Assembly: GCA_947034885.2 (NCBI GenBank)
Contig: OX344753.2
Span: forward strand, 27,482,347-27,546,346
From: Thuidium tamariscinum
Taxonomy: Eukaryota > Streptophyta > Bryopsida > Hypnales > Thuidiaceae
DNA: 64,000 bases
Reading direction: 5' to 3'
Shown here in pieces: positions 1,936-55,072 of the stretch (positions are counted from its first letter, which is position 1; each line of letters opens with the position of its first letter). Under the pieces are notes generated by a model. That model did no database searches, was not told the origin of the DNA, and saw only the letters and a list, made by a program, of their open reading frames with translations. A program made the position numbers and the translations under genes.

Positions 1936-1955
1936 TTCAGAACGCCCGTTCTGAA
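1936..1955. repeat. Dispersed 20-bp palindrome, copy 1
   Basis: This is the isolated leftmost copy of the family with consensus TTCAGAMCGCGCGKTCTGAA. It has one mismatch in the core (GCCC for GCGC). It lies between the two foldback modules. Confidence 0.85.
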
Positions 1956-2094
1956 TCGGACGGAGCCCGTGACCAGCATGTGAGGCCGCTCCGCAGTCGA
2001 CGTCGATGCACCTTCGAAGGTCCCCCTCTGAATCCCACGTTCTCTTTCGTCGAGCGTTCGTCGCCGTCCCTGCAGACCTTCTTCCGGGGGTTCC

Positions 2095-2640
2095 ATTTGA
2101 GCGTCAACGTGCGCCATTTGCAAGGTAATGGTGGACCCGAGATGTGGCAGTTGCCGACCACCCCCCAAATACATCCTTCGATAGAGACTACAGGAGCACG
2201 TGCAGGGAGGAGTTGTGACGACAGGCGATGGCTTACTGCAATTGATGTCTTCCAGTGAATGTTTTGGACGTTCACATCATCGATCGTCCCTGAATATTCC
2301 CGTACGTAGGTGCCTCCGTACGCGAAGAAAGCGAGATGTAGGAGTCGCTACGACCCATTTTCTTCATGTACGGAGGTACCATTGTCACGGAAAATTCAGG
2401 GACGATCAATGACGTGAACGACATTCATGGTCGACGACAACGCAAGATGTTGTCCGTGAATGCCCGAAAGAATCATTGGAATGCATCAATTGAAGAAAGC
2501 CATCGCCTAGCGTCAAAACTACCGATCCCCACACGCGCTTCCGTAGTCTGGACCGAAGGATGAGATCGAAAGATGATCGGCAACTTCCACATTTCACGCC
2601 CTCCATGAACATTGCAGATTTGTTTTGCTTGGTGCATTGG
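2095..2640. repeat. Foldback module 2 (imperfect inverted repeat)
   Basis: A second copy of the foldback module, centred near 2345. The left arm carries CATCGATCGTCCCTGAATATT near 2278 and the right arm carries its mirror AAATTCAGGGACGATCAATG near 2392. Outer parts of the arms match each other and both arms of module 1, for example the blocks near 1160, 1530, 2160 and 2560. The four arms therefore alternate in orientation. No gene is seen inside. Confidence 0.65.
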
Positions 2641-3308
2641 AGCCAGACGTGCCTTCGTGTACCCATGCACACGATTCCAAGGAAGCTCGAGTGGTACGAA
2701 CGGAGTACGAGACACAGGGCGAGCAGGTGGAGCTCTATTCCCTGGAATCATGTGCATGGGCACACCGAGACATGATTGGGATCGGATGTTTTGACAATGT
2801 AGGCCATGCATTTGCTTGTCCTGAAAGGTGAACAACGCGATAAGAAGTGAGTGTGAAGGACAGGGATCAAATCATGCTACAAAGAAAGATGTAATGTTTG
2901 GTGTCGCAATCCGGAAAAATCATGTAAGTAAAATAGGAAGATAGTATATAGAGTAAGCTCAATTTTTCAAAATTTTAGGGTTAGATATGGCGAAAAGAAG
3001 ACAATTAGGGTCTTCTGCCCTTGGGATCCGTTTGAACCGGATTGACCAAGGTGAATTTCCGGTCTATGGGCATAAGTTTCCGGATCCGGATTCCTCAGTA
3101 CCCAAAACGGAACTTTCCGGAAGATGGAACTTGGAAAGACGGATCCGATATTGTCGAAGGCGGATCCGGTATACCTAAAGACGGATCCGAGGCAGTTCCG
3201 GATGGTCGACACCTACGGGTTTACGCCGCCGACCTACGGAAACTAGCGTAACGACCGGGGAACGTCGCACCGTTCCGAGGGGAACTGGGAACGCAGGGTA
3301 CCAACTGG

Positions 3309-3316
3309 TATATAAA
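3309..3316 (+). promoter_or_regulatory. TATA box of element L
   Basis: TATATAAA lies 407 bases inside the element and 175 bases upstream of the gag-like ATG at 3491. The equivalent box in the inverted copy is at 9555-9562 on the minus strand. Position and conservation in both arms suggest the Pol II promoter of the gag-like transcript. Confidence 0.6.
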
Positions 3317-3490
3317 CCCCTCCTCTCCACTTCATTTTTCCTTTTCGATTTGGCAAATCGAGGTACGGCTTGTGTGCAGGTTTTGAAGCGCGTATAGAGA
3401 GAGAAAGAATGGTGAGCAGTAGAGATCGGTTCCGGGTTTAGTTCAGGGTCGGTGCCGACCGCACCGACAAGTTTTGACTCGGGTGGAGAG

Positions 3491-5488
3491 ATGGCGAGTT
3501 CCTCCAATCCGAAACGGGCGGTAGTGACTGCCAAGGCAATTTCGCCAGTCATCCCTTCCGATCCGCAGCATCGGAAGGAGTTAGAGGATGATCTAGTCTT
3601 CCTAGGGTGTCATGGGTTGATCCAACGCCCTTGGAGTGTGAAGAGTGACGAGATGGTACAGGAAATCCTCTCGGGAGTTCCGAATCAGTACGAACTCACA
3701 GTGAGGGGTAGACCGAGTGCCTGGACGCCGGATATCTGGGCGAATGTATACGGTTTTGATAAAACCGGATTAGGTCTAGCTCCCCGGACGGACAAGTTTG
3801 GTGTTAACAAGTTCCGGAATCCGCCCCACCCTAAGGACGGATACTCAGTTCCGGATTGCACGAACGACCGGCATAGACGGATGTTGGAATTCTTGATTCC
3901 CATCCTCTATCCGGAAAAGCCTACCCGTGTCACCGTGACGGTAGCAAACACCATCTTCGGGTGTTTTGAGAAGCGGATAGTCAACTGGGGTATAGTCCTC
4001 CAGTGGGTAGTTAACCGGCTAGCCGAGCATGTGGGACGGGAGAAGACCAGCACTATCAACGGCTATCTCTTCCACCTGTACCACCACAATGATGTGTTGA
4101 GTGGCCCGGAACTCCTCTGCTATGAGACGGGAATTCAGATCCTCAAGTACGGCTTGACGGATGAGTTGGAGAAGGAGCCGGAGGACCCAGACGACGAGCG
4201 GATGGACGAGGACCCGGAAGAGCAGAAGCCGGCCAGCCAGCCGGAACGGAAGTCGGAACGGAAGAAGTCCACCACGCCGGATAAGAGGGGACACCCAGAC
4301 CCGGATCCACCCGAATCGACCTTGGGGAAAAAGAAGCGGAACCACTTCGACACCATCATCCGTCACGCCATGATGGCACACGCGGATAACAACCAGTATG
4401 AGGCGATACTCGAGCAAATTGTCACGAAGCTGGGCGCGGTGAAGATTGAGGACATTCCGGAAATCCTCGACTGTCTTCCGACTCAAGACGTGTTGCGGAA
4501 GAAGGACGAAGAGATCCGGAAGTAGGAGGACAAGGCCCAGAACCAGACGGATCGGACCCGGCAGGCGGAAGATCTGGCCCGGATAGCTGAAGAGGGACGA
4601 CGGAAGGCGGAAGAGGAGCGGAATGGGCTCCAGAGCACGGTGACGTACCTGGAGAGTGATCTCAGTGTCGCCAACGGGAAGATCGTGGAGGCTACCTCCT
4701 TAGTTCGGAACCTGCAGGAGTTGGTGGCCCAGCCGGCAGATACAGTGATCAGGGCGAAACTGTTTTCCGCCCGGCTGATGACGGAAGGGCACGTCACCGG
4801 ATCGAAAGTCATCACCATCTTGGTGGATTACTAGGCCAAGATGGAAGGGGTACTGAAGGAGATGAGGGCCTTAATTGGGACTCTCAATCCGGAGTTGGGG
4901 GAAGGACTGTCGAGCTTGCTCAACCAGCAGGTGTTTACGGACTTCAGCCCCGGAGCGCAAGGACGGATGTCGACGGATCGGAAGCTACTCGGAAACTCGC
5001 CGGTCGTGAAGAACCTCGGCGAGCTCGGATCGGATCCGAATGCGGCCGGACCGTCCAACACACCTACGGATCCGCAAGAGAAGAGGGCATCACCACGGCT
5101 CGACCTCGAGATCCGGATGAAGGCCCTAGCGAATCCGGCCAGGGAGAATCCGGAGAAGTTCGCCCACATGAACGAGCCAGATAGGGTTCCGGGCAAGGAT
5201 CCGCGCAGCAAGACAGTCATCTTGGATGACTCGGACAGGGAAGACAATCCGCCCCTCACCATCCGTAATGAAGTTAGGGAGCAGGGCGGATTTCAAGAAG
5301 TGGAGCATTCGGAGAGCTCCGAGGCGGATTCGGAGGAGACTTCGACAGAAGACAGCGGAACGCCGCCGGTTCCGATTCAAAAGAGGGAGACCCGATCCGC
5401 CACCAAGAAGGCTCTCCCTCCCAAGGCAGCAACGCGGAGAAGTTCAGTTCTGCCCGTGGGCACGACATCGAAGCGGGCGCGTAAGTAG
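3491..5488 (+). pseudogene. Gag-like protein of element L (two in-frame stops)
   Basis: This frame of 666 codons starts at MASSSN (ATG 3491) and ends KRARK-stop. It is interrupted by TAG at 4523-4525, where the inverted copy has Trp, and TAG at 4832-4834, where the copy has Gln. The N-terminal 230 residues are a conserved globular region with TRTDKF-like, KDGYSV and RVTVTVANTIFG motifs and an FHLYHHND block, all shared with the frames of R, A and B. A long charged coiled-coil follows (RQAEDLARI-like heptads), then an acidic/serine stretch and a basic C-terminus that could be a nuclear signal. The N-terminal layout resembles plant retrotransposon gag or 'putative plant transposon protein' domains (inference). 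No zinc knuckle (CX2CX4HX4C) is visible. Nonfunctional as read. Confidence 0.7.
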
Positions 5489-6167
5489 GATAGGTTTGAG
5501 TAGTTAGGTAGGATTTTGAGATTTTGGGACGGAAGTTTCCTGGACGGATTTCCCGGATGTGGGCCCCGATCCGGAACTTTAGGAACAACTCGTCGGACCT
5601 TTCCGGATAATCCGGTTGGGCTCTGATTGGTTGTTTTGGATTTTCTTTGGCCTTGTTGGCATTCCTTTTCTGTTTTTAGGCTTTGACTTTCATTGTGTTT
5701 TTGGGCTTTTAAGGGGCAGGCAAGTTAGTTGGCCTGTCATTCCCTCCTAGTGCATATTCTATTGTATTTTCATTCCCTTCTTTAAATCTGAGCCGGCGGA
5801 TGGACATTCTAGCTCTGACTTGTGTTTGAGTCTCTTTTTGGTGTATTCGTTGAAGTGTTGAGAGGCAAGAGGGAAGGGTGAGGAGGAATCCGGATTCTGA
5901 GGCACTTGAAATCCGAACTGAGTGACCAACTTTCGAGAGCTAGGATCTTGAATCGTGAGTTGAGCGTGGAGCCTTTAATTCACCGGAACGGTGATCCGGT
6001 GTGAGTCCAGGAGTGACGAGGAGGAGGTTCCGGAACCGCAGGGGCGGATCCGTGTGGAGTTAAGCAGCCGCCATAGGAAAGTTCCGTCCATCGGAAGGCC
6101 TGCCAACCACTGAGTCGATCCGAAGAACTAGGAAAATACATCCTTTTGGGTCTAGGGGTTTCTCGAA

Positions 6168-6235
6168 TCTGTCGTTGTAGTAAGGGCAAGTGAAGTAGTC
6201 TTGAGTGACCTACTAACCGGATTGGCCTAGAGCTA
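6168..6235 (+). other. Conserved 3' non-coding block of the gag-only family
   Basis: The block reads TGTCGTTGTAG, then after about 30 bases TTGAGTGACCTACTA, then GCTATCC. Matching blocks in the same order occur on the minus strand of element A (about 19822-19896) and element B (about 22485-22555), although surrounding sequence is diverged. The homology of inverted copy R stops just before this block. A role in RNA packaging, 3'-end formation or priming is possible but unproven. Confidence 0.5.
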
Positions 6236-6722
6236 TCCAGGAAGTTGTGAGGATCCGAATCCGGCCCTAACACAACATCGGATATATTTTGGTGTTTTCA
6301 TGTGTTTTGTTTGAGAGAAGAGAGCGTGAGGTGTACGAGTGGTAAGTCCCTACCCCTCTAAAGATCAAGAGAGGACTCCCTGAGGGTAAAACAGGGGTAT
6401 CAAAAACCAATTATTGAGTGACGGAACCGGATTCCGGATTGAGACGGATCCGGGTGAAGGAGAAATCCGGATCCGAGAAAGGAATCCGGTCATAGTTGAG
6501 AGACGGATTCGGAAAGAAAAGATGGATCTTGAAAAAGAGTCTGGAAGATAAGTTGGTATTCCGGATTAAGAGTAGTAACTTGGGGTGTTTTGATCCGATA
6601 AACCTAGAAACCGGAAAACGCAACTATTAGTAACGTCTGGAATCTCCTGGGACGATATTCCGTGTCATATTATCACGTTTGGGTGTGATAAAGGTGCTTT
6701 CTGCTGGACTGCGCGTACGACA

Positions 6723-9700
6723 ACCCCTAGACCCAAAAGGACGTATTTTCCTAGTTCTTCGGATCGACTCAGTGGTTGGCAGGCCTTCCGATGGACGGAA
6801 CTTTCCTATGGCGGCTGCTTAACTCCGCACGGATCCGCCCCTGCGGTTCCGGAACCTCCTCCTCGTCACTCCTGGACTCACACCGGATCACCGTTCCGGT
6901 GAATTAAAGGCTCCACGCTCAACTCACGATTCAAGATCCTAGCTCTCGAAAGTTGGTCACTCAGTTCGGATTTCAAGTACCTCAGAATCCGGATTCCTCC
7001 TCACCCTTCCCTCTTGCCTCTCAACACTTCAACGAACACACCAAAAAGAGACTCAAACACAAGTCAGAGCTAGAATGTCCATCCGCCGGCTCAGATTTAA
7101 AGAAGGGAATGAAAATACAATAGAATATGCACTAGGAGGGAATGACAGGCCAACTAACTTGCCTGCCCCTTAAAAGCCCAAAAACACAATGAAAGTCAAA
7201 GCCTAAAAACAGAAAAGGAATGCCAACAAGGCCAAAGAAAATCCAAAACAACCAATCAGAGCCCAACCGGATTATCCGGAAAGGTCCGGCGAGTTGTTCC
7301 TAAAGTTCCGGATCGGGGCCCACATCCGGGAAATCCGTCCAGGAAACTTCCGTCCCAAAATCTCAAAATCCTACCTAACTACTCAAACCTATCCTACTTA
7401 CGCGCCCGCTTCGATGTCGTGCCCACGGGCAGAACTGAACTTCTCCGCGTTGCTGCCTTGGGAGGGAGAGCCTTCTTGGTGGCGGATCGGGTCTCCCTCT
7501 TTTGAATCGGAACCGGCGGCGTTCCGCTGTCTTCCGTCGAAGTCTCCTCCGAATCCGCCTCGGAGCTCTCCGAATGCTCCACTTCTTGAAATCCGCCCTG
7601 CTCCCTAACTTCATCACGGATGGTGAGGGGCGGATTGTCTTCTCTGTCCGAGTCATCCAAGATGACTGTCTTGCTACGCGGATCCTTGCCCGGAACCCTG
7701 TTTGGCTCGTTCATGTGGGCGAACTTCTCCGGATTCTCCCTGGCCGGATTCGCTAGGGCCTTCATCCGGATCTCGAGGTCGAGTTGTGGTGATGCCCTCT
7801 TCTCTTGCGGATCCATAGGTGTGTTGGACGGTCCGGCCGCATTCGGATCCGATCCGAGCTCGCCGAGGTTCTTCACGACCGGCGAGTTTTCGAGTAGCTT
7901 CCGATCTGTCGACATCCATCCTTGCGCTCCGGGGCTGAAGTCCGTAAACACCTGCTGGTTGAGCAAGTTCGATAGTCCTTCCCCCAACTCCGAGTTGAGC
8001 GATCCAATTAAGGCCCTCATCTCCTTCAGTAACCTTTCCATCTTGGCCTGGTAATCCACCAAGATGGTGATGACCTTTGATCCGGTGACGTGCCCTTCCG
8101 TCATCAGCCGGGCGGAAAACAGTTTCGCCCTCAACACTGTATCCGCCGGTTGGGCCACCAACTCTTGCAGGTTCCGAACCAAGGAGGTGGCCTCCACGAT
8201 CTTCCTGTTGGCGACACTGAGATCACTCTCCAGGTACGTCACCGTGCTTTGGAGCCCATTCCGCTCCTCTTCCGCCTTCCGTCGTCCCTCTTTAGCTACC
8301 CGGGCCAGATCTTCCGCCTGTCGGGTTCGATCCGTCTGGTTCCGGGCCTTGTCCTCCCACTTCCGGATCTCTTCGTCTTTCTTCCGCAACACCTCTTGAG
8401 TCGGAAGACGGTCGAGGATTTCCGGAATATCCTCGATCTTCACCGCGCCCAGCTTGGTGACGTCCTGCTCGAGTATTGCCTCAATCTGGTTGCTGTCTAC
8501 GTGCGCCATCATGGCGTGACGGATGATGGTGTCGAAGTGGTTCCGCTTCTTCTTCCCCAGGGTGGATCCGGGTGGATCCGGGTCTGGATGTCCCCTCCTA
8601 TCCGGCGTCGTAGACTTCTTCCGTTCCGGCTGACTAGTTGGCTTTTGCTCTTCCGGGTCCTCGTCCATCCGCTCGTCCTCTAGGTCCTCCGGCTCCTTCT
8701 CCAACTCATCCGTCAAGCCGTACTTGAGGATCTGCTCTCCCGTCTCATAGCGGAGGAGTTCTGGGCCACTCAGCACATCATTGTGGTGGTACAGGTGGAA
8801 GAGATAGCCGCTGATAGTGCTGGTCTTCTCCTGTCCCACATGCTCGGCTAGCCGGTTAACTACCCACTGGAGGACTATACCCCAGTTGACTATCCGCTTC
8901 TCAAAACACCCGAAGATGGTGTTTGCTACCGTCACGGTGACACGGGTAGGCTTTTCCGGATAGAGGATGGGAATCAAGAATTCCAACATCCGTCTATGCC
9001 GGTCGTTCGTGCAATCCGGAACTGAGTATCCGTCCTTAGGGTGGGGCGGATTCCGGAACTTGTTAACACCAAACTTGTCCGTCCGGTGAGCTAGACCTAA
9101 TCCGGTTTTATCAAAACCGTATACATTCACCCAGATATCCGGCGTCCAGGCACTCGGTCTACCCCTCACTGTGAGTTCGTACTGATTCGGAACTCCCGAG
9201 AGGATTTCCTGTACCATCTCGTCACTCTTCACACTCCAAGGGTGTTGGATCAACCCATGACACCCTAGGAAGACTAGATCATCCTCTAACTCCTTCCGAT
9301 ACTACGGATCGGAAGGGATGATTGGCGAAATTGCCTTGGCCGTCACTACCGCTCGCTTCGGATTGGAGGAACTCGCCATCTCTCCACCCGAGTCAAAACT
9401 TGTCGGTGCGGTCGGCACCGACCCTGAACTAAACCCGGAACCGATCTCTACTGCTCACCATTCTTTCTCTCTCTATACGCGCTCCAAAACCTGCATACAA
9501 GCCGTACCTCGATTTGCCAAATCGAAAAGGAAAAAATGAAGCGGAGTGGAGGGGTTTATATACCAGTCGGTACCCTGCGTTCCCAGTTCCCCTCGGAACG
9601 GTGCGACGTTCCCCGGCCGTTACGCTAGTTTCCGTAGGTCGGCGACGTAGACTCGTAGGAGCCGACCATCCGGAACTGCATCGGATCCGTCTTTAGGTAT

Positions 9701-9969
9701 ACCGGATCCGTCCTTGACAATATCGGATCCGTCTTTCCAAGTTCCGTCTTCCGGAAAGTTCCGTTCCGGATACTAAGGAATCCGGATCCGGAAACTTATG
9801 CCCATAGACCGGAAATTCTCCTTGGTCAATCCGGTTCAGACGGATCCCAAGGGCAGAAGACTCTAATTGTCTTCTTTTCGCCATATCTAACCCTAAAATT
9901 TTGAAAAATTGATCTTACTCTATATACTATCTTCCTATTTTACTTACATAATATTTCCGGACTGCGACA
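6723..9969 (-). mobile_element. Gag-only element R, inverted and 3'-truncated
   Basis: Read on the minus strand, the copy begins TGTCGCAGTCC at 9969 and follows element L closely through TATA box, gag-like frame and early 3' region. It stops at 6723, lacking about 555 bases including the conserved 3' block and the ...CGACA end. It abuts element L tail to tail. The missing terminus means it could not have inserted there by normal integration in its present form, so a rearrangement is inferred. Confidence 0.75.
7394..9379 (-). pseudogene. Gag-like protein of element R (one in-frame stop)
   Basis: The frame starts at ATG 9379 (MASSSNPKR) and ends at TAG 7394, 662 codons. A single TAG at 9304-9302, 25 codons in, replaces the Gln codon that L has at this place (CAG to TAG). 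Downstream, 636 codons are open. The copy retains the Trp and Gln codons that are stops in L, so neither arm is intact but the two arms have independent breaks. The N-terminal globular domain, coiled-coil middle and basic C-terminus are as in L. There are short indels relative to L in the Lys/Arg-rich segment near residue 260. Confidence 0.7.
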
Positions 9970-9971
9970 GA

Positions 9972-10590: not shown

Positions 10591-12033
10591 AGGCCATCAT
10601 GACGCCGGTTGTCCGTGCGGATACCTTCAAGTTCGCAAGCCAACAAACAGCGACCCGAAATGTGAATCACGGATTGGCTTCCTCGGAGTGCTCTGCAACG
10701 ACCAAAGTAAGACGTGTCTGGGATATGATCTCTACGATGAAGACTATTCGGGTGCGACGCTCATTTCATGTTATTGTCGCTCGAGCACGTGACTGGAATC
10801 GAGGAGGCGAAGGAATGCACTGGTAAGATCTAACGTCCATCAATGTACGGTCCGTGGATCAGGCGAAGAGGTCTACGAGAGGGCAAGGAACAGACTGATG
10901 CAGCTTCCATACAACTACGCACCATGCAGCGGTCAGGATGGGTGTCGCACTCCATTGCATTTTTCATGCGACGGATAATGTTAGAACGACGAGTCCCCAG
11001 TCAAATGTAGATGAAAATGTATGTCAAATTAGTGATGCAAACGAAATGCAATGCAAATCACAATATTGTCATCATAAGTGCATCCACGTTGGAATGGTGA
11101 TGAGGTTGCACGTCCTACTGAACGCTAAGGGGGAAAAACTACTAGCTAAACAAGACAAGGATATAAAGAGTCCACGAGGGGATCCCAGTTTCTTCGCTGA
11201 TGCACGGTCTGCGGTGGTCATGATTACGACAGCCCGAGACCGTGGAAGCGTCAAGGGGTTGAGGCTAGTCATCCTATGTTGAATTTGACGCGAGGAAGGT
11301 TTTTGCCGACATCGTTCGTCGCGACGTCCGTGGACGAGGATACGGCGCGATAGTGGCGACTCCCTCCGCGACGGAGCCCACGGTTCAGAACGCGCGGCCT
11401 AAACCGCCCACGGGCCTACACGAGAGGACATCCACAGATCCCGCGCGAGTCGCTGCACCTACGAGAGTCAACGATCAACTGGCGCTCAGTACCCCTTCTG
11501 AGACGACCCACATATTTCGACGTGCAATAAAAGAACATCCCAGTGGACTCGGAGACGAGAGACTGAAGCCAGCCAGCCATCCACCATCCCATGCAGAAGA
11601 TCCAAAAGGAAGGACGACCGGACGAGGAGGTGCAGAGATAGAGAACAAACTCGAGGAAATCTTCCAATGGACGGGGGATTTCTTCAGAGCTTGCATGGAG
11701 TCCTAGACCGCCTGAGTGGAGGACTCCTGACCGCAACGACGACGTCATCGAGAAGCGTACCTGGGTATTTTTTTACCGTGGGGCCGAATCCCGCATACTG
11801 TGCGCCCAACGGGAGCGATGCACGTCCGCGATGCCGTGGCCGAGTGGTCGTGCTTCAAAGAGGAGCTGACGTCGCGTCGTCCCCGGTGTCCTGAGGGACG
11901 GAGCAGCCTTCGGAGGAGCCCACCCCTTCTGCCATTCGCGTCCGGCGCCGCTTGGAGCGAGCGGCCATCGCGACACCCTCCAACACGCCCCGGTCACCCC
12001 CGACATATATGCGTCGTCGGATCTGCACAAGCA
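10591..12033. other. Intergenic stretch without a convincing gene
   Basis: One plus-strand frame (about 11353-11706) is open and reads as low-complexity charged protein ending in an amphipathic segment. It begins with a palindrome-derived V-Q-N-A-R-P stretch. No family was recognised, and an overlapping minus-strand frame is equally open. I see no RNA gene or transposon end here. Confidence 0.4.
11384..11403. repeat. Dispersed 20-bp palindrome
   Basis: TTCAGAACGCGCGGCCTAAA differs from the consensus at the right-hand end only. On the plus strand it lies in the phase that encodes V-Q-N-A-R-P. Confidence 0.85.
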
Positions 12034-13847
12034 TCACGTTTTCCTCAAGGGATGAGTGACCGCTCTCCTCTTAAAGAAAGGACCGCTCCTGTTCGCATTG
12101 TAACTTCCGACGAAGTCCAAATAGTCCAAGACGAGATCACTGTCCCTCGACCGAGCTAACTTGACTACTCTCATTCCCAGTTTCGTCTGGGTCCAGGGTC
12201 TGTCGAGCCATCCGAAGTAAGGGGGGGTTTCCGATAGGTATTGGGGCACGCTCCGCCCGGATTCCAAGAGGCCCGCCAAGTACGGGCGCAAAGAGCAGTT
12301 GAGGAAACTGTCCGTCGCGCTGCCAATGAAGTTCAGAGGGAATATGGCATTGTGAATGGGGTTGAGGATGGTGCTCTCCGGGCTGGACTCGATGAGCAGG
12401 GTGTTGGTCGCGTTGGCACTGAAAGCGCTTGCGTGGAACCTGGGGTCGCCCCAGACGACCTTGTGCAACACCTTGAGCTGCAGCAGCCCCCCAGGATGGT
12501 CTGGAAAGGCCATCCAGGTGTTCTTCTCGACCTTCTTGTCGACAAACATGTCCGCCGGGTGCGCCGGGCAGCCGAGGAGGGGAAACTCTGGGTACGGCGG
12601 GCACTCGCAGGTCCACCACGCACGCCTCTCCACCAGGGTGGTGCAGTCCTCTATGGTGAGGATGGACATCGTACTGACGTCCCTGTCCCGGAAGAGGAAC
12701 TTCACCACGGGCCTCGCAACATCCCCCGGTAGCCGGGTCCAGATGCCCACAGGGAACCTCTTGGACAGTCCGTTGAGGAAGTGGCGCACCTCGGGTCAAC
12801 AGTACAGGGCGTACTCCCCGAAGACATGACAGCGTGCGGGATCGAAATCCGCCTCAGAAGGCTGCGCGACGGGGGCACGCGGAGCGGGCGGAGCCGGACC
12901 GACGTGCTCGATGTGGCATAAGACCCCCTCCACTTCCAAGAGGACGAAATAACTCATGCGCGGGAGGCAAGGGGAAGGGATCGCTGGGGGTACCGACGGT
13001 GGTGCCTGCACGTCCGAATGCCCCTCTCCTTGAGTAGGGATTTCTAAAACGGGCGAGGCGGAAGAAAAAACTAAGACGCAATTGCGAACCACGGAGACGG
13101 TCCATCATCATATCAAAGGCACGAAGACGCGACACATTGCAAAAGGCGTGCAGTCTAGAGCGCGCGTTCTAAACACATCGCCCGTCATGCGGCGCAAGCC
13201 GGGGACGCATGAAGTTTAGAACGCGCGCCCTGAAACATCCCCCGTCTACGTGGGCATCCTGTCAACACTTACAAACTACGCTGGGAGGAGTATGGGAGGA
13301 CAACAGAGTGCGGGTGGGAGTGGGGAGAGGCATTGTGGCTCACCTTCGTCAGCGCATCCGCCGGAGCCGTGCGGATTGGAGGGGTCGGAGGGGCCTCGCG
13401 TGCATCAATCGACGGAGCGAGCTGCGGTTCCGCTGTAGGGAAGACCCGTGCCGTTTCTTTACTTTCTACTTAGGGAGGCACCGCCTGCAAGGTGGCGAGA
13501 GGGATCGTGGTCCAGGGCCCGTCGACTTCTTCCTCAAACAGGGTCGCGAGCGAGCCATCCAATGCGTGCGGAGGTGCAGTCATCCAAGGTCCCCCGGCGT
13601 CGACCTCCACCGGAGGGGGCGGAACGACATCCGCAGTGACGGGCGTCCGCAAAGCGCTGTCCACTTCCACGTCATGGGGGCTGGGTGGAGCGACGTCCCC
13701 GGATAAGGAGAGCTTTTCGGGGGCTTGGTAGTGTGGGGCTTCGTCGGGGCCGGTCAGGTGGATGGTTGGGATTCTCGTCGGATCGAGCGTGCTAGGGAAG
13801 TGCAACGGGTGTGGATGCGGAGGCTTCACGGGGAGGTTGGTGTCCAT
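12034..13847 (-). pseudogene. FCP1/NIF-like HAD phosphatase-domain gene, decayed
   Basis: Two exons are inferred: 13847-13344 (Pro-rich, disordered) and 13005-12034, joined by a GT-AG intron (13343-13006) that keeps phase 0. The second exon matches the FCP1/NLI-interacting-factor domain in order: a beta strand ending LLEVEGVL where the family has DxDGT/V, then PEVRHFLNGL and VGIWTRLP (family RPGL.EFL and IWTS), then NTLLIESSPES followed by NP (family NTLLIDDSP...NP), then a DSFL...LRPYL tail. Family members are Mg-dependent Ser/Thr phosphatases, many acting on the RNA polymerase II CTD. Both catalytic Asp positions read Glu here, and the DDSP motif reads ESSP, so even without its stops the domain looks catalytically dead. 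TAA at 13472-13470 and TGA at 12798-12796 interrupt it. It could be a downstream part of the larger minus-strand gene at 14.3-28.1 kb rather than a separate gene. Confidence 0.7.
13154..13234. repeat. Two palindromes in the intron of the FCP1-like gene
   Basis: Copies lie at 13154-13173 (TCTAGAGCGCGCGTTCTAAA) and 13215-13234 (TTTAGAACGCGCGCCCTGAA). Both are inside the inferred intron 13343-13006. Confidence 0.8.
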
Positions 13848-18093: not shown

Positions 18094-18126
18094 CTGTGAA
18101 ACGATGGAGACACATCAGAGACCATG

Positions 18127-18495: not shown

Positions 18496-18514
18496 CTGGA
18501 AAGTAAGATCATAC

Positions 18515-28689: not shown

Positions 28690-28780
28690 GCCCCGGGACT
28701 TTTTATTTCAGTCGAATCAAGATCATCGTGTGTCCATTTTTTAATATTACTATTTTTACCCTCGTTGTCTCTGCATTTGG

Positions 28781-31432: not shown

Positions 31433-31434
31433 TA

Positions 31435-32833: not shown

Positions 32834-32837
32834 TTAA

Positions 32838-34654: not shown

Positions 34655-34658
34655 TTCC

Positions 34659-41099: not shown

Positions 41100-41215
41100 C
41101 TTGGTATATGGTGTATGGTGTGTGGCATTTGGTGAATTGTGTTTGGCATATGGTATATTGTGTAAGGTGCATTGTGTATTGCATATTTATTGTGTACGGT
41201 GTATAATTGTGAAAT
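41100..41215. repeat. TGGTRTAT-type degenerate simple repeat
   Basis: Alternating TGGTATATGG, TGTATGGTG and TGTGTGGCAT words make a low-complexity microsatellite-like tract of about 115 bases. The minus-strand frame over it is an artefact of the repeat. Confidence 0.7.
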
Positions 41216-41339
41216 TTTGAGTGTATTCATATATGATTGTGGAATGACTATTGCTCATATAATTGTTAATACATTTTTCTTGCACACATTGCTACAAATA
41301 AAAAATAACTTTCAACATCCTTAAAGAGTGATTTGAACC

Positions 41340-43813: not shown

Positions 43814-44519
43814 TCATAGTAGAACATATCCGAGTCTCCTTTCTACCCAGTACTTCACTGAGGCCTTGAAAATTTCCCCAAAATGCTTATCAATGGCGGC
43901 TCGAAAAGGTGGCATCTGGTCACTATAAGAAACTCATGTTTTAGATGACGGATTGTAGGTGACATCTAATGTAGTAACTTGTGTTTTCATGTCAGCAATG
44001 ATGTCCGCCATAACATCAAGATGTTATGGCGGACATCATTGTTGACATAAAAACACAAGTTACTACATTAGATGTCACCTACAATCCATCATCTAAAACA
44101 TGAATTTCTTATAGTGGGTACTCAAGGACAACCTTGTGGATGTTAGAGAAACGCAGATCTGCCAATGAGAGCGCTAAATCTATCATCTGCAGCGAACTTG
44201 CGACTATATCCTCGTCCACTTTCTTTGTTGTATAGAGCAAATTAAAGTAGGAACAATTGTAGAGCTTTGACAGAGATGTCAGATGCTCCTTGATGTCGCG
44301 CTTCAACATAGTTTTGAAGATAGGTGACACACACGCCAACACACTTCTGTATGCTTTCACAAAGCCGCCGTTGGCATTGAGCGTGATGTCTGCAAATACA
44401 CCTTCCTCCAACATCTTGAGTGTGAAATCACAGTAATTTCACTTTGGATTTGTTGTTGTTGACTCGTCTGGTGTGAGCAACTCTGCAGTGTCAACATTTG
44501 CCAATTGCACAAACTCCAT
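43814..44519 (-). pseudogene. BTB/POZ-domain gene fragment interrupted by a MITE
   Basis: The frame starts at ATG 44519 (MEFVQLANVD), crosses a TGA at 44441-44439 and enters a BTB domain: LEEGVFADITL, then KAYRSVLACVSPIFKTML and IKEH, then a KVDEDIVAS strand-helix segment. BTB domains mediate dimerisation and, in plants, often recruit CUL3 ubiquitin ligases. At 44117 a 196-bp MITE interrupts it. After removing the MITE and one GGT the frame continues 34 codons (QMPPFRAAIDKHF...) to TGA 43816-43814. The family usually reads L.AHR.VLA.SPVF, so His is Tyr here. The downstream part is lost or unrecognised. Confidence 0.7.
43921..44116. mobile_element. 196-bp CACTA-type foldback MITE
   Basis: The element is almost entirely a hairpin: CACTATAAGAAACTCATG at the left is mirrored to CATGAATTTCTTATAGTG at the right, arms of about 95 bases meeting near 44018 with nearly no loop. 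The 3-bp duplication GGT flanks it (43918-43920 and 44117-44119). CACTA ends plus a 3-bp duplication fit the CACTA (En/Spm) superfamily. Arms differ at few positions, so it is fairly young. Confidence 0.9.
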
Positions 44520-47339
44520 AACTCAAACTAACTGCTGATAATCGTACCACCACCACAAATTAATTAGGTGCACATACAAAACAAACACTTGAAGTTTCCA
44601 AAGCATTCACAAGTAATTATTCACTCAATGAAGTTTCAAGGGAATTTAGGGGACACAATTGAAATTTCGATAGCACTCATGAATATTCATCTAAAGTATA
44701 TATATGCAATTGAATTATTGAATTATTGAGTACTTAGTTAAGTCTTGATGAATTTCATGATGATGCATCTTTTTTGCAATAAGGGAGTACTGTTTACTAC
44801 AATTATAACAGAATGTATGGTTTGGAGAAGTATTCTATTTGTAGTACTGACATATAATTGCGTTCAAGCTTCTCGAAGTTCTCTTTCTAATGTTTCTTTC
44901 AATTTATTTGGTACTACTAGTAGCGAAATTTGTATGATTATTGGATCCATTTGTACATCTTGAAAGTAGCATGTATGGATACATACTAACATGATTTTCC
45001 AAAATTACAACCAAATGAATCCTAAGGCTTCATGTCACACCAAATATTTCAAATTGATTTGTTGTAATTAACATTTTAGAGTTGAATGTGTATACCATCG
45101 AGCGAGCTTCATTGTAGATTTTGAATATCAAGGTCATGTCAATGTAACCAATTGATTTCCATGAGGCAGTTCCATGATTTCAGTGGCACAAGACAGTTCA
45201 TATGCAATTTTCAATAATCACAGTATTGATCGTCAAATCTTATGATCACTAGAAGAAAATCACATTTTTTATGAGAAGTCTCCAAACATGGAGGGATGTT
45301 CGAATTTACATCAAGCATGTCTATTATGCATATCTAGGAAAATCCATCCCGATTGACAAGCGAAAGAAACAAGAAAATATGAAAAAGAGTGCCCTATTTT
45401 GAGAGCAGCATCCTAGAAAACATGGGCCACGAAGCTGTCAAAAGTGCGCAATTTGGCAGCCACGTGAGTGCCACACAGGCAAGTAGTTCCACATGGGATT
45501 TTTATTCACCTTAATAAAATTTGAATTTTGTTTTAAGCAATGTCAACATACTAGGTGTCTAGAAAAATTGCATACGGTTTTGAGCAACATGAACTTAGAC
45601 ATGTAGAAATTTTGTAAAACATCAATTGGTTTATGCCACATAGCAAGCAAGGTCGGTGCAAATTAATGAACTAGTAATTAATTATTTTTTTCAATATTAA
45701 TAAATAAATTATTTCATAATTCATTATTTCATTATTAATTATTTAATCATTATGAATGAATTTATTATTAGTTGTTCAGTTCATTAATAATGAAATATTT
45801 ATTATTTAATTTATTATGATTGAATTGATTTTGTTGTTTCGTTCATTATTAAGTCATTATTAAATTTTTAGCTCATTTTTAATGAATTACTCATTATTTA
45901 GAAGTATCATCTACTTGATTTATTATGTATTTGTAAGAATGAAGTTGAAAGAGGTCGTATTTATATCTAAAGTAGGGGATTATAAAAGCGACCGTTTACC
46001 ACATGATTTGCATTTCGGGGAAGCTGAACCCCTGAAAACCATTTTTAATAAATTTTCGTGGTGAGGAAAATGGAATTGGCATCTAATCCGATTCGTTTCA
46101 TATTATTTGGACCTTCATGGAATGAGTTATGAATATTTGGAGTTGAAAACACGATGGATTCTAAAAGCGACCCCCTCTTGAATTGTACACTTTTGGTACA
46201 TGTTACAGGCAAAATGTACCTGATCACTTTCAGAGACAGGGTTGCAATTATAGCCCCCTACTTTACAGTTCGCCGTTCTAGAAACAAAAGAGAAGGGATA
46301 ACTAGAATGAAGAAACTGAACTCCTAAAATTATTTTAGGTCGCTCACTATGAATGGAATTTTGTTTTCTCCTTTGAAATGTTCAGGCTATATCAAAAAAA
46401 TCTTTTTTTCTAATGCCCAGCAGTTTCCAAAAACTTTGACTACATGCTGAACCCCTAAAGCACCGCAACAATGTTTCCACCAAAACTGCTCCAAAACTCT
46501 CATTTCGAGGACAACTACCCAATTTCAGAAAAAACAACATTTTTTGATACATGTAACCATAGGATCTCTTAGTGCACTAGTTTGGAAAGATGTAGAAAAA
46601 ATTTCAGAGATTTCCACCATGTAGATTGCAAGATATTAGTGTTTGAAGTTACAAAAATCAATTTTTTTCCACTGCGAAAATTTGGGCAGCTGCACTTCAA
46701 AAGGCCACATTTGTATGAAGAAATGTCCAAAATGGTTGCAACTCTTTAGACTTATTCTACGATTCAAGTTGGCTACATGCTTGAAAATTTTCATATCATT
46801 TGGAATTGTACAACATGTACAACAAAATAGTAAGAAGAAAGAAGTACATAATGATTCAAAATACAGAAATGGTAAAACTTTATTTATTGAATTGAAAAAT
46901 GCCCATCCCAATGGTTCAAATGTTGTAATAAACAATCTACACCCAATGTTTATATTTTTTTTCAGAAATTATATTGAAAATTGAGTAAAACAGAGGACTT
47001 CAAAGTTTATTCTAGAGAAGAGAATCCATAACTACTCGCAAACTAAAATCCTTCATAACTTTTGGCTCATTAATTCAAATGGAATGATTCAAAGCTGTAC
47101 ATGTATATAAATCTATAAAATAAATTAAAAAAATTTATTTCCAAAAAAAGTGATTTTTTCTAATGTGCCCAAACTGCCCGAATTGAGAAACAAACAACGT
47201 TTTATGTGATAACTTTTCAACCATGTAGGCAAAAGTCACGGAATTTGTTGGACTTTCAAGACACTCCTCGTCCACACCTTCTATTAAATTTTGGTTCCAA
47301 AATATGGAAATCTCTAGCCACACGTACCTGCCCAAAATC
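44520..47339. other. AT-rich, gene-poor stretch
   Basis: No gene recognised. 45660-45890 is an ATTAAT/ATTATT low-complexity tract. Phrases such as AACCCCTAAAG near 46450 and GAACCCCTGAAAACC near 46028 echo the ends of the TTAA-type elements. Confidence 0.4.
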
Positions 47340-47377
47340 GCTATGTTGCCAAAAAAGGCATGTTGGTCCTTTAGGGG
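47340..47377 (-). mobile_element. Single end of a piggyBac-like element
   Basis: Read on the minus strand, TTAA (47378-47381) is followed by CCCCTAAAGGACCAACATGC. This closely resembles the CCCTTTAAGGACTGGT end at 55537. No partner terminus was found to the left, so the element is probably degraded. Confidence 0.45.
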
Positions 47378-47381
47378 TTAA

Positions 47382-49592
47382 ATAATTCTTGTATGATATG
47401 TAGATTGTGTTTAACCAAGCAATCCGGGCAAACTAATTGAAATAAATTTTTTGATAAACTTTAATTTACTGTTTTTTCTTTGAATTTATCCACACAAGGA
47501 AATGTTTTCAGAATCATTCTATTTTGATGAATGAAATGAAAGTGATGAGTTATTTTTTGCGTGGTTCTCGATTTTGTACTTTGAAGTTCTTTATTCGAGT
47601 CAAGCTTTCAATGTACCTTCAAGAAATGTTTGTTCTTTGATTCAGATAGTTTATTAAAACAATAGACCCATTGGAATAGAGTTTTTGAAAATTTCGTTAT
47701 GATAAATACATTCTTGAAAATGTATTATTTTGAATCATTCTCTATTTCTTTCTATTTACAATTTTTTTCTGCAATACTGCAGTAGGGAGTAGAAATGAAG
47801 ATTAGAAATTATAGAGAAATAGGGAGTAGAAATTAGAACCTAGTGAGCAGTGAATCTAGACAAACAAAGTATCCAATGAAAATATGAACGAAATGAAGAA
47901 ACTAAGAACCTTACTAGTTACCTTCACTTGAAACGTACGGTGTAAAGAAGATATTAAGAAAAGTAACTTTTTACAAAGTCAGAAATACTACTGTGAAAAG
48001 ATTCACATATCCGAGTGTGTACATTTCTGTTGCTAAAAAGTGGCTTTTGCTTAGCTTATCAATCTTTGTTCCCTTTCCAAAGAAGAGAAAGAAATTAGTA
48101 CCATCTTTTCGGCATAAGTAATGTAGAGTGCCATAATGTAGGCAATTTTTAGAAAATTTATAATTGTTGGGTCCTTTTTATTTCTTCATGGGAAGTAAAT
48201 GAACTCCAAGTAATTGCCCCCTTGCCTCAGGGTAGGTACCCAAATATGCAGAGAGTGTTGCACCCGAGTAATTGTCCTTGTACTCCTAAAGATCGACTTA
48301 CATATTTCTATGATTGCAATTGTGGTATTAAGTAACGCATGATCATTGACATTGAATTATGTGTAGGCATCGAGCACAATGTGCATATAGTTTGAGCACT
48401 AGTGCAGATCTAATTTTCAGGCCTTTCCATCAGGAACGTCAAATTCAGTAAGTAGGTACAATTGCATGATTTTGGCATGTCCATTTGAGGAAGACATTAA
48501 TCCTATGAAATATAAATTTGTAGTGGCTCTAGCCATATAAGTTGTTGTTCTTTCATGTATAACCTTTTGCTATCTTTCAACGTATTGTACAATAATTATA
48601 GGAAAAGGTTCTTTAGACATCTTTGCTTAATATTTGGTGCTCTTACTAGGTGTGCCGACTCTTGAAGTCATGTGGTCTTCACTTACTTGTGTCCTATGAT
48701 GTTGTAGCCACCTAAAGAGTGTTTTGAGACTGTTGGTTAATCCTTAAGTGCATACGCATCCAAAAAGTGGATGTGCCTCAGTAGGTCATCCTTGATTTCA
48801 ACTTCAAATATACCCGCTTTTGGAATTTGACTTTGACAAGGAAAATGAAGCTCGACAATTTTTGTTTCAATTTCAACTTGAAATTGTGGAGAAGTTGAGA
48901 AATTGAAGAAGTTATTGCAACTGCAAGCTCTATGTGCTAAAATCCAAAAAGGACAAGTTGTTGTGTTTTTGATTCATTTTTTTTTCTTTTCAATGGAATG
49001 TTCTACTTGAATGCCAAAATGAACTTGTTCATTTATATCTTCATTAATGATATATTTAAGAATAATGTAGTTGATATAATTATTTTCTATCCCTAACTTT
49101 GAAAAATGACAATAATTTGTAGTTTTCAACCACAATTTTGAAAACATTTCAGTGAATAGGAAGTACGATTTCCTATTAGTAAGAAACATCAAATTCTTAT
49201 ACCTCAGTCTATTGAATGAACTATGAAATGTGGTTTGATAGGCTTATGTTACTTCAAGTCTTTGTTGTGGTTGTTTGGGGTTTTAAAAAAGGAATAATCT
49301 ATTGAAAATTTTGTAGTAAGACTAATGTTCATTGTTACTTGTAGCTCGCGACAAAATGTCTCAAAATTTAGATCATTTAATGTATTTTTACTTATAATTT
49401 TCTATAATTTGCAACCCAAATGATGGCAATTACAATTGTTTCCAAAATCAATTGAAATATCTCCATGGTTTCACATTCTCCATTGTTTGAAGTCATGAGA
49501 ATATAAGATCAGAATTTGAAGGCCATCTAAAAGGCTCAATTCACCTAGGACATGATGTTTGACTACATGGCAATGGATGTTTTCGTTTAAGG
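47382..49592. other. AT-rich stretch, nothing recognised
   Basis: Short frames only. A block near 48230 (GTAGGTACCCAAATATGCAG) resembles 37673 (GTAGGTCCCCCAAATATACA), so a diverged repeat may be present. Confidence 0.35.
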
Positions 49593-50500: not shown

Positions 50501-50943
50501 GTTGATTCCACAGTTTAGGACGCGCGGTCTGAACCGTCTGCGCTTTCCCGGGAGAGTCCACTCGGAAATTCGGTTTCCGTGGAGCGTGCCTTTTCGGATA
50601 CGAAGTAGGTCACAGCGAACGAGAATTCAGCATTGAGGACTGCATGTAGGTTCGTTGAGTGCATGTGGCACTCTTACACGGTCACTTCATCAGTTCAGGG
50701 CGCGTGGTCTGAACCTTGTATGATTCCACAGTTCAGGACGCGCGGTCTGAACCGTGTGCGCTTTCCCGGGAGAGAGTCCCCTCGAAAATTCGGTTTTCGC
50801 GGAGCCTGTCTTTTTGGATATGAATTCAGTCACAGTGAACAAGAATTCAGCATCGAGGATTGCATGTAGGTTCGCTGAGTTCAGCTGGCACTCTTACACG
50901 GTGTCACTTCATCAGTTCAGGGCGCTCGGTCTGAACCTTGTAG
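50501..50943. repeat. Tandem pair of about 220-bp units bounded by palindromes
   Basis: Unit 1 spans about 50501-50720 and unit 2 about 50721-50943, near-identical apart from small indels. Palindromes sit at 50514 and 50694 in unit 1 and at 50732 and 50917 in unit 2, close to both ends of each unit. The arrangement parallels the 209-bp units at 28.8 kb. Confidence 0.9.
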
Positions 50944-51117
50944 GGCACTATCAAGAAATAGCGCGTCGGAGCATCCAAATTTCGCCATTGCTCGAGTTCC
51001 TTTGTACAAGTCAGACGACGCAAATAGAGCAAGCGGCGGACAATCCCGGAGCCGTGCTCTTGAGAATGTGGAGCGCCGACCTGAGAAGGACAAGTGCATG
51101 TTCTGTGTTGTCCGCAG

Positions 51118-51137
51118 TTTAGAACGCGCGGTCTGAA
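51118..51137. repeat. Dispersed 20-bp palindrome
   Basis: TTTAGAACGCGCGGTCTGAA, one base from the common form, about 180 bases after the tandem pair. Confidence 0.85.
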
Positions 51138-54066
51138 CTGTGTCGACAAGCCTAGAAATGTAGTCTCGACGTCGAGTTGCACGACTTCGGACAGTTGATG
51201 AACAAATGGCTCTGCGATGTTTCGTCATCACATGTCTCGTTGCAAAAAAGAAAGATTACATATTCCAAAAAGAAACCAGTACTCCGGTCTACTAGTCCGT
51301 TACATTTCCCCTGTCGGACAGGGACTTACTAGGTAATCTGTTCTCCAATATCTGAGCTACAGTTCCTTTGCCACCGGGCCGATCAGTGGAGTCCTTATAC
51401 CCGAAATACTTTGCATCCCCGCGTCGTGGGCAGTTCACAATTTCCGACGTTTGGAAAGGCGTGACTTTCGCTTCAGATTTGCCAAGTCCAATTTCGTGTC
51501 GTTGAGTCTCCCACGGATCTCTTCAAATATATCACCGTCCACTGCCAAGTGCACGGGCTCTACTTTCGGAAATTCCGTGGCTTGGTCGTCGTCTTGGAAG
51601 AGAACACGACCATCTAGTTAAAATATTCTGAATGAGCAGGATTTGAGGGTTTTGACTTCTGAAGAATCTAGTGGTTTCTACAGTGATAATCCCATGACAA
51701 TTTCCGAAGTTCGAGGGACATTTTCTGAATATAATGATTTCGTACGGTTCTTGAAGACCACGGCCATTTTCAGTTTAGGCTGCGCGTTCTAAAGTACATA
51801 GCATTCGTTATTTCTAGACCTCGGAAGTTGACATCAGAGATCTATACTATTTCTGAGACATGCTCAATTACAGTGCACCCAAGCTGCGTTTTCAACAACA
51901 ATCGTGTACTGCATTTGTCTAAATTCGACGACATAGTATGCGGCTAGTGATTGTTGGCACACCTCGATGAGTCGTAGAAGCAAGCATCCATTTGTGGTCG
52001 ACGACAGCTTCTCGACGTCGTCGAATTTCTCCATAAGCGCCCTACAGGCATACCCTCTACGTTAGAAGCCTGGACCCTACGAGAACGTTGACAAGAGAGA
52101 GGACTGTGACTTTCCTACATTTCATGCACACGCACTTGGGTTGCACCTTCGAAGAATCACCTGAGGTTTTTGCAGTCATTGTTGTGGCGAACCTGCACGT
52201 AATCCTCCATCTCCGCCCATGTCTGGCGAATGGCCTCATCAAAATGAGCACCCCATTCCACAGCATCTTTGTCCTGAAGCGCGCACATAACTCGACCTGC
52301 AACATCGACAATATCAGGATAAAGACAATCTCCTCGAGGACAGCAAAAGTTCGAGGAGAATCAGGTTTGGAAGGCGATTGACGATGTGAGACTCACCCAT
52401 CTTACAGACTTGAAATTCTTCCTTGGATGCGGCGCATTTTGAGTAATGAGCGAAGCAATACAGCTTGTAGCCTTCCCAGAAATCGCCGTCCCTGAATGAA
52501 AAGAGCAGCATTTAGTTGTCCTCGAAATGCGCACATTCCTGGTTAGTATGACAATGGTGATGATGCGATCATTCCTAAAACGTCTCTTCTAATAAGCGGG
52601 ACGAATAACTCTACGGAAATGGAAGGCAAGACGCGAATGCGCAACCCGAATTGTTCGCTGTCCAACATAGTCCTCACAGCGTCCGAGCACGTCTTGAAAT
52701 GTGTTTCCGCCATTAGGTCGTGGTTCAACTGCAGTTGCCCGTTCCTGCCATGGACACGAACATCAGTACGACCAGCAATGTCGGAAGTACTCTACTTTGA
52801 AGACTGCCAGGAATATGATCCTGCACAATTACGAGAAGCTACACTGAAGCGCAAAGGCACTGTGATTTTCCCTACGACTCGCGAGAAGCTTGTATTTCTC
52901 TAATTTGGAGATGCAACGTCGGTCATCCGCAACTTGGCAAACCTACGTCGATCATGACGGCAATGGAACAGCATTTCACATTACTCGAAGCGCACCCTGC
53001 TAAAGATGTACTCGACAGACTTCTGGAACCTCAACAAGAAATGCAATGAAGCAAGGATTCGTGACGATGCACCTCCTTCGCGAATCGTGGCGCGGCATCT
53101 TCTGTCAAATGAGCCGCAACGGTCGCCAGCGATCAAATGTGATGTTCGGGAGAACGAGGAGCGCTCCTTGGAGCTCGAAGTTTGTTTCCGTCTTCCCTCA
53201 CTCTAGGTACTGTTCGCCCTCTCGATGGACACCGAGGCTTCCTGCAAATCCTGTGCCGCAACCTTTCCTTTTCCCTACCATTCACTCAACGAAGTATGCG
53301 GGAGATGAAATAATGATAGAGATGATGCCACATCCGATGTCACCAGTGTCGCACAAGTGTTGCCAGAAACAAAGCCGCCAGTCACACAAATCTGTCTCGG
53401 AAATTGAGCTACTTGTGGGGAAGCGCACTTTTTCCCTTTTTTACGTGTCCGACTGTTACTCTGATGGAACTTCTTGTTAGTAGTTCACTGTTTCGCGAAC
53501 TGAATATTTTAACGTCGGTGGGTGACGATGGTGCCGGTGTCTCCAGTGGGTGATTGTGTCGTCGTCCTGGTGCTTGTTTGTTCATTAATTTCCTGAACAA
53601 ACCAACGATTTCAAAAGTATGAAATCAGGAATCGGGGTGAGTAATCATTTCCTCGTAAGCACGAGTCCCATTCATAAGTCTACTAGCAAAAGATTCCCTG
53701 GAGACGCGACAGAGTGATCAAATGGAATCATCTGAAGTTTCAATAGTGAAGTTGGTGCACCTCTTTCCAATTTGATTCGGAAATGACTTATGGTTGTCAT
53801 TTCGTGACTGAATACAAGGAATTGGTATCAGCATTGAACTGCTGCTCTCCAAGATATTGATCAACTTCGACTTATAGCATTGCTGCATTTCGTACAGCCA
53901 TAGATCGCGTGCCTCTTCAAGTATCTGAAGTGAGCAATGCAATTGGAGTCGCGGGAATCCTTGAGAAGCAGGTATTCAGAAATTGGCACACTCGTGGGTT
54001 CATGGTTTACTCTGTCGATGCACTTTGCTCTAGGATTTCTCGGGAGTCCATGAATCAATGATACAG
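51138..54066. other. Unassigned mixed-composition stretch
   Basis: Several minus-strand frames (52057-52311, 52314-52511, 52543-52728) have plausible composition, including a CVCMKC motif near 52120 and a YKLYCFAHYSKCAAS stretch near 52450. They may be remnant exons of one decayed minus-strand gene. I could not connect them or name a family. Confidence 0.3.
51774..51793. repeat. Diverged 20-bp palindrome
   Basis: TTTAGGCTGCGCGTTCTAAA keeps the dyad layout with several changes, an old copy of the family. Confidence 0.65.
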
Positions 54067-54134
54067 TTCAGACCATACGGTCTGAAGTGCATCGGTGTGG
54101 TTCGAAGGATCCACTTCAGACCGCGCGGTCTGAA
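54067..54134. repeat. Palindrome pair in a 48-base direct repeat
   Basis: TTCAGACCATACGGTCTGAA (54067-54086) and the perfect TTCAGACCGCGCGGTCTGAA (54115-54134) are each followed by GTGCAKCGGTGT. The first copy has lost both core CG dinucleotides (CATA for CGCG) while staying palindromic. Confidence 0.9.
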
Positions 54135-54336
54135 GTGCAGCGGTGTCTCGCCAGGCGGTAGTCTCACCAAGCTGTAGTCTCGACAGGCGGCTAGGTTTCT
54201 GTGCCTTGTCTCGTAGGGAGGTTACCGATTTCGCGGGTATTTATATGCTCCTCACCCACCATGTTTGCACTTCTGTTTCTCTGCATGGTCTTTGTGAGTG
54301 CGAGCATTTCTTCTTTTCGTCTATCAGTTGCACAAC

Positions 54337-54831
54337 ATGGGTTCAATGAGGGAAGTGGTTCTGAGTGACGCCATTGTGGCCCTGGTTGTCCGCGGACTTT
54401 GTTGCAAGTCTGACAACCCATGGGTGCGTTTCGAGGAGCTGGCGAATCGGGGCGCAATGCTGCGTTTGTTTTCCTGTCTCGCAGCCGTTTGTCGTACGAC
54501 CTGGAAGGTTGTGTAGGTGACACCTGAATTTGTAGCCCTCCGGTTGGCCGAATTCGACGTGTGAGTCACCGCTGTGGAGCTCTCTCTATCGACGAAGGAG
54601 AGTTTGATTCTGCACGAGTTTGACAAGAACTTGGATTTACTGAGTAGATCATGGGCACTTGGAGTTGAAGTGCCGTTGAGGCTGCGGACCAGCCCCCTTG
54701 GTGATCTCGCTGTCGCTGAGCTGCAGGAGCTACGACAAATTCTACTTGGCGGCTGGCAGCACGAAATCAACGTCAAGGCTGCTGGGCAGGCCCTGTCCCC
54801 CACAGTTTGGGTGACACCCGCCATGCGTTGA
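54337..54831 (+). pseudogene. Unidentified helical protein gene with two in-frame stops
   Basis: From ATG 54337 (MGSMREVVLSDAIVALVV) the frame runs to a stop at 54831, broken by TAG 54514-54516 and TGA 54562-54564. Reading before, between and after the stops is protein-like and rich in Leu, Ala and Glu, for example FEELANRGAMLRLFSCLAAVC and LAVAELQELRQILLGGW. It is probably all alpha-helical. No family was recognised. A small intron covering the stops is an alternative to decay. Confidence 0.4.
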
Positions 54832-55052
54832 GGTGAATGCTTCGCTTCCATGGCCTGGTTTCTGAATTGCTTTCATCCTCAGTTGTCTTCTTTGTTGAGC
54901 ATTTCTACTTGCAGTCTAGCTGACTTTGTTTTGTTATGTTGCTGACCATGACGAAACCTGAAGGTCTGTTGAATACCTTCCGATTGAATATGGAAGGACT
55001 GCACACACGGACGGGAGACTTTCGCGTAGTTACGGACACTTCAATGTTGGAG

Positions 55053-55072
55053 TTCAGAACGCGCATTCTGAA
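55053..55072. repeat. Dispersed 20-bp palindrome, last copy
   Basis: TTCAGAACGCGCATTCTGAA differs from a perfect palindrome by one G-to-A change in the core. Confidence 0.85.

Follow-up and report, generated by a model that had tools for sequence, protein, structure and literature searches.

The window analyzed here, a 64,000-nucleotide stretch of the Thuidium tamariscinum genome (contig OX344753.2, positions 27,482,347 to 27,546,346 of the forward strand), is almost entirely occupied by a single copy of a giant DNA transposon bounded by terminal inverted repeats (TIRs), and a 20-bp palindrome recurs within this element. The copy starts at L027:2969, which is 4,032 bp to the left of window base 1, and ends at 62611, for a length of 66,643 bp. 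Its right end is sharp and common to several copies, with the element in the window, L010 and L015 ending alike in ...GAAATTGACCAT before flanks that differ. End comparison of copies placed the right TIR, ATGGTCAATTTCGTTAAAATGGCGATATTCC (read on the minus strand), at 62581..62611, adjoined by subterminal 22-bp tandem repeats at 62491..62590 that contain no palindrome, and the left TIR, AAGGGCAATTTCGTTAAAATGGCGATATTCC, was found in L027 and L030. TIRs of ∼31 bp are present at both ends in the pairs L030/L010, L027/window and L051/L052; a script search for short TIRs inside the window alone found none. A cleaner copy on C5 (C5:13606721-13661457) spans 54,737 bp and is flanked on both sides by the 4-bp target site duplication (TSD) CTTT. 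Inverted terminal repeats at both ends and, in the C5 giant and in related miniature inverted-repeat transposable elements (MITEs), a TSD fit cut-and-paste TIR DNA transposons.

The giant is a repeated element. We compared the window with five sister copies (C5 at 13.6 Mb; C4 at 15.1, 2.2 and 17.9 Mb; C3 at 26.4 Mb), which were found by fetching stretches around recurring palindrome spacings, with both ends fetched only for the window, C5 and C4 17.9-Mb copies. Alignments to these copies extend over tens of kilobases and are mostly 95 to 99% identical. An 842-bp gene 1 exon has at least 40 matches in the genome (40 of 40 scored among 44 candidates), with one element giving two, and 25 of them, the window's own included, are at least 95% identical over 796 to 842 bp. 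Sequences resembling the TIR (up to 3 mismatches) number 2,084 on the plus strand and 2,103 on the minus strand, compared with 0 for the control, and these 4,187 matches include the ends of giants besides MITEs.

Two genes of the giant are central to its interpretation. On the plus strand at 59642..61495, tblastn identified ∼618 codons colinear with protein P0002 (75.9% identity), and the only Pfam match of this transposase-like protein is DUF7869. The structure model of P0002 resembles integrase/DDE cores and ends in a BAH-like domain (residues ∼485 to 599), so we regard the DUF7869 protein as a putative DDE-type transposase with a C-terminal BAH-like domain, the latter perhaps a chromatin reader for target choice. 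A text search of the literature found no paper that names DUF7869. The second gene, gene 1, is large, multi-exon and on the minus strand. Its 5′ coding part (27397..28128) is homologous to residues 1 to 244 of P0124, a homolog from another data set; an intron follows at 18097..18513 (donor GAG/GTATGA, acceptor TTTCACAG/GAATTC), supported by the end of the P0124 alignment at 18512, and an exon with one in-frame stop lies at 14411..16621. An open reading frame (ORF) in the gene 1 region at 12037..12795, also on the minus strand, is similar to NLI-interacting-factor (NIF) phosphatases (PF03031, E 5.3e-8).

The palindrome is a real, nonrandom family, as the original prediction held. With up to 3 mismatches allowed, the window contains 29 sites, while 100 dinucleotide shuffles contained 0, and the whole-genome scan suggested as a check returned 2,443 sites in 363 Mb compared with 11 for a reversed control, so a chance origin is rejected. 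The perfect palindrome form with at most 1 mismatch occurs 328 times genome-wide (control, 0), and this family accounts for 12 of the window's 14 near-perfect 20-bp palindromes (at least 9 of 10 pairs). Both half-sites vary through a similar set of forms, as judged by eye. The list of 34 copies originally drawn up needs some revision: 28 are within 3 mismatches of the motif, while copies 13154, 16028, 28225 and 51774 have 4 mismatches and copy 18127 has 5; the weakest, 15904, is very degenerate (6 mismatches in its best register, 15902); position 50917 is corrected to 50916; and a copy at 28533 (3 mismatches) had been missed. The reported avoidance of 2902-9969, 19359-27065 and the AT-rich block holds for sites with up to 5 mismatches, and single near-matches with 6 mismatches at 36065 (in the AT-rich block) and 57010 are probably due to chance. 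Scans for tRNAs and Rfam RNA families gave no match, and both identities are rejected. A pattern scan of viral contigs returned one lone match, TTCAGAGCGCGCGCTCTGAA, in a 27-kb contig, which is probably chance, and a plasmid search returned none. Consistent with the earlier statement that no plant repeat of this kind is known, searches of the literature by sequence pieces and topic words turned up no description of the palindrome among the entries listed, with Repbase outside the search; the entries that matched a sequence piece look unrelated.

The densest cluster comprises 13 copies (28155..29390; at 28155, 28225, 28446, 28533, 28581, 28670, 28781, 28870, 28991, 29079, 29200, 29284 and 29371), borders the first matched gene 1 codon on its upstream side, in a promoter or 5′ intron, and includes a 209-bp tandem repeat in which every unit holds two palindromes. 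Four copies (18127, 18271, 18368 and 18476; 18127..18495) fall within the gene 1 intron, and five (15782, 15839, 15904, 16028 and 16088; 15782..16107) within the gene 1 exon, where they share one reading frame with a QxARSE-like translation that the degenerate copy 15904 no longer gives. Copies 50514, 50694, 50732, 50916, 51118 and 51774 (50514..51793) are associated with a 220-bp tandem repeat. The motif scan also located copies 11384, 13154 and 13215 (11384..13234) and copies 54067, 54115 and 55053 (54067..55072), of which 54067 and 54115 precede TATTTATATGC, TATA-like as judged by eye. A single copy at 1936..1955 is inside a stretch of ∼449 bp (about 1595 to 2042). The gene 1 intron provides a further comparison, since the P0124 ORF runs, after the same splice donor, into a palindrome-like SDRAV-stop, known from the peptide alone, for which our own arithmetic puts a chance match on the order of 1e-6. 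Such a peptide was not seen in P0127, in the part of the intron that its ORF covers, or in any of the other 126 proteins compared, of which P0125 is too short to be informative.

The palindromes hold fixed places and are inherited with the element. We tallied 35 places (the 34 originally listed and 28533), and palindromes were kept at 34 of 34 places covered in the C5 13.6-Mb copy, 29 of 31 in C4 15.1, 26 of 26 in C4 2.2, 32 of 34 in C4 17.9 and 24 of 26 in C3 26.4. In each case of shortfall, a deletion running from one palindrome to the next has fused two neighbors, namely, 50694/50732 in C4 17.9 and 54067/54115 in C4 15.1 and C3 26.4; the place of copy 1936 is covered in none of the five. 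The palindrome is conserved more than its flanks in two diverged relatives, L046 (105/120 palindrome positions identical versus 310/435 in flanks) and L043 (42/51 versus 105/173).

Beyond the giants, the palindrome resides in MITEs. We classified 24 perfect sites, a small part of the 2,443 sites genome-wide (4 loci from the genome scan and 20 picked nonrandomly from 50 listed in the scan for the perfect form, leaving out those in the five giant copies). Twelve lie between two TIRs, 4 match the MITE and have a single TIR, 7 correspond to the giant or to a diverged relative, and one (L036) is unassigned. The original prediction had envisaged an independent element scattered through ordinary gene-like DNA. 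The DNA in question proved to be a giant repeated transposon, and the outcome named as refuting it, that all copies are parts of one longer repeat family, describes 23 of the 24 sites; the earlier interpretation as a whole is thus partly supported. Its view that the palindrome is too short to be a TIR element agrees with ours. The palindrome-bearing elements are typical MITEs, being short (∼310 bp), present in many copies, and equipped with the giant's TIR and 4-bp TSDs. Their palindromes typically lie at three stations, 42 bp in from one end, about midway (at ∼146 bp) and 53 bp in from the opposite end; shorter MITEs deviate from these stations or retain just one or two palindromes. An exact 4-bp TSD flanks 10 of the 12 MITEs chosen by palindrome (161 to 313 bp) and 8 of 8 (182 to 312 bp) picked from TIR pairs among the genome-wide TIR matches listed, the latter amounting to seven independent TSDs because two of the eight share flanks. 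The two with ATGGCC/ATGGCG-type TIRs carry three palindromes each, with up to 5 mismatches.

A second MITE subfamily (L053 to L055 and L058 to L060) has a TIR like the giant's right end and tandem GTGCCATTTTGACATATTCC-like repeats, with no palindrome. Two members, L055 (C2:470143-470469) and L059 (C2:858707-859033), share both MITE and flanks and lie 389 kb apart, probably through segmental duplication.

The palindrome probably does not move as a unit of its own. We propose, with a probability of roughly 0.6, that it is an internal cis-acting motif of one TIR DNA transposon lineage, bound by a dimeric or paired protein that controls expression of the element and/or assembly of its ends. The lineage would unite two forms: giants, which measure about 55 kb and combine ∼31-bp TIRs with a putative DDE-type transposase (the DUF7869 protein) and the large multi-exon gene 1, and ∼310-bp MITEs that have the same TIR and a 4-bp TSD. 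The protein, made by the element or by the host, would recognize each half-site (TTCAGAMC-GCG) in the DNA palindrome; the binding, the partner and the effect are inferences. Because the half-sites vary alike and the motif persists in MITEs, recognition of the DNA by a protein dimer would explain the palindrome most simply. The clustering of the giant's palindromes before the gene and in introns suggests regulation; the MITE stations point to a function close to the termini, or to descent from a relative whose palindromes lay close to its own termini. More tentatively, and at somewhat less than even odds, this may be a new group of giant (about 55-kb) plant TIR transposons that couples a DUF7869-BAH transposase with a multidomain partner gene, and in which a self-encoded protein would read the 20-bp operator in the giant's introns and promoters and at the MITE stations as one regulatory circuit. 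DUF7869, a domain of unknown function present in many proteins, gains a likely identity as a transposase core, and an operator-like motif common to a giant and its MITEs is directly testable.

Several observations weigh against this proposal. No matching TSD flanks the window copy (GAAC/TACT), and the flanks of the C4 17.9-Mb copy (17857060-17913081) agree inexactly, as ACAT two bases off. At the giant's ends, neither L027 and L030 (leftmost 4 kb) nor the right-end stretches L010 and L015 yielded a palindrome with up to 4 mismatches, so the palindrome is not required for end recognition; six of the eight MITEs chosen by TIR, all of the ATGGTC type with GTGCCATTTTGACATATTCC-like repeats, also lack it, so it is not needed for mobility. 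The ∼449-bp stretch that carries copy 1936 is missing from the C5 and C4 17.9-Mb copies; since it is bordered by a 7-bp direct repeat (TCTTTCG) and shows no TIR by script, it may have been gained in the window copy or lost from the other two. Across the five young copies, differences number 156/3020 in palindromes versus 437/7550 in flanks, and divergence by base context does not differ significantly between the two. Conservation is likewise without clear excess in three close relatives, L048 (117/120 versus 515/546 identical), L039 (115/120 versus 491/508) and L037 (38/40 versus 609/628), and diverged L050 runs the opposite way (26/40 versus 440/561) because one of its two palindrome copies is lost.

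This lack of excess among young copies and close relatives also fits an unlikely alternative in which the palindrome is a recombination-prone sequence that tandem duplication and gene conversion have multiplied inside the element, with no bound protein. The location of several copies in the 209- and 220-bp tandem repeats and the palindrome-to-neighbor deletions in three sister copies point the same way, whereas the excess conservation in L046 and L043, the palindrome-like peptide of P0124 in the same intron and the typical MITE stations all argue against it. An RNA role seems less probable again. Here, an 8-bp hairpin in introns or untranslated regions of element transcripts would serve processing, silencing or dimerization, which would suit the many giant copies in an intron, in an exon or upstream of a gene. 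Wobble-type mismatches favor the coding strand by 14 to 7 in the gene 1 part and by 8 to 0 in 50514-51774, where strand was assigned by eye, but tandem copies make these counts nonindependent, 31 of 60 mismatched pairs in copies with an assigned strand are nonwobble, and MITEs retain the palindrome despite having no gene. A small palindrome moving on its own, like bacterial REP/RPE units or yeast mitochondrial GC clusters, could explain the copies inside an ORF in one stop-free frame and the absence of copy 1936 with its ∼449 bp from two sister copies, but we reject it as highly improbable (copy 1936 excepted), given 0 lone 20-bp gains or losses among the five sister copies, where losses are confined to palindrome-to-palindrome deletions and the 449-bp stretch, and the finding that 23 of the 24 sites classified outside the five copies belong to TIR elements or to relatives of the giant.

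An internal binding motif would have precedents among DNA transposons. The TnpA sites of En/Spm and the internal repeats of P elements are short, repeated binding-site-like motifs near ends and in the elements' own control regions, and the giant family too has a repeated motif of this kind; it differs in that the 20-bp palindrome, a candidate binding site, occurs at MITE stations and was not found at the giant's ends. The MITEs resemble other plant MITEs in size, TIR, TSD, copy number and the absence of an open gene, as expected at ∼310 bp, but differ in having three long palindromes at typical places and a TIR link to a giant partner. TSDs are 2 to 3 bp in CACTA elements, which have CACTA ends, and 8 bp in hAT elements. 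Those of Mutator are 7 to 12 bp according to PMC10741241. Ends of ATGG or AAGG and a 4-bp TSD led us to reject all three. As described in PMC10741241, the Sola superfamily has a 4-bp TSD, TIRs of 11 to 1,124 bp and a DDD-type transposase and is reported from a moss; on this description, the giant resembles Sola in its 4-bp TSD, its TIR length and its putative DDE-like core, but at about 55 kb with further genes it falls far outside the Sola sizes given there, mostly 2 to 9 kb with some above 15 kb. Other multigene DNA elements of tens of kilobases are KDZ elements, up to 30.3 kb in Ectocarpus (PMC12477816), and Teratorn, 41 to 182 kb with 18-bp TIRs (PMC6431247); compared with these, the giant has a DUF7869 protein instead of a KDZ or piggyBac transposase, and its host is a plant.

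Further searches with gene 1 were largely uninformative. None of the 7,991 candidates scored against the 549-amino-acid exon proved homologous at E ≤ 0.001, the gene 1 profile had no match in PDB, its structure model is poor (pLDDT 40), and 0 of the 60 viral-contig stretches that fit the gene 1 pattern were confirmed as relatives. The ParB/DGQHR-like look of the segment KIINGQHTWKA, noted by eye, received no Pfam support, and no virus genes were noticed in the Pfam scans run, which covered part of the giant.

A later fold-back insertion at 2902..9969 has 3.26-kb inverted arms that are 95.9% identical, and its place is taken in the C5 and C4 17.9-Mb copies by a different 2.9-kb stretch that carries palindromes. 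Another later insertion, at 19359..27065, has TG...CA ends with a 4- to 5-bp overlap at the empty site, which is empty in 5 of 5 sister copies; a unit within it (21977-25890) recurs at other places inside the sister copies. The AT-rich block (30600..49500), which has 30 to 38% G+C in most 2-kb steps, is part of the giant. A stretch within it, 33497-35477, is missing from the C5, C4 15.1-Mb and C4 17.9-Mb copies and is probably another later insertion. Divergence between copies is 1.2 to 2.2% in the AT-rich block versus 2.6 to 4.4% in GC-rich parts, where the transition/transversion ratio is also greater, as decay of methylated cytosine would give. Contig C11 (17.5 Mb) carries every one of the 10 gene 1 exon matches that fall below 90% identity (67 to 89%) and could be a low-recombination or sex chromosome.
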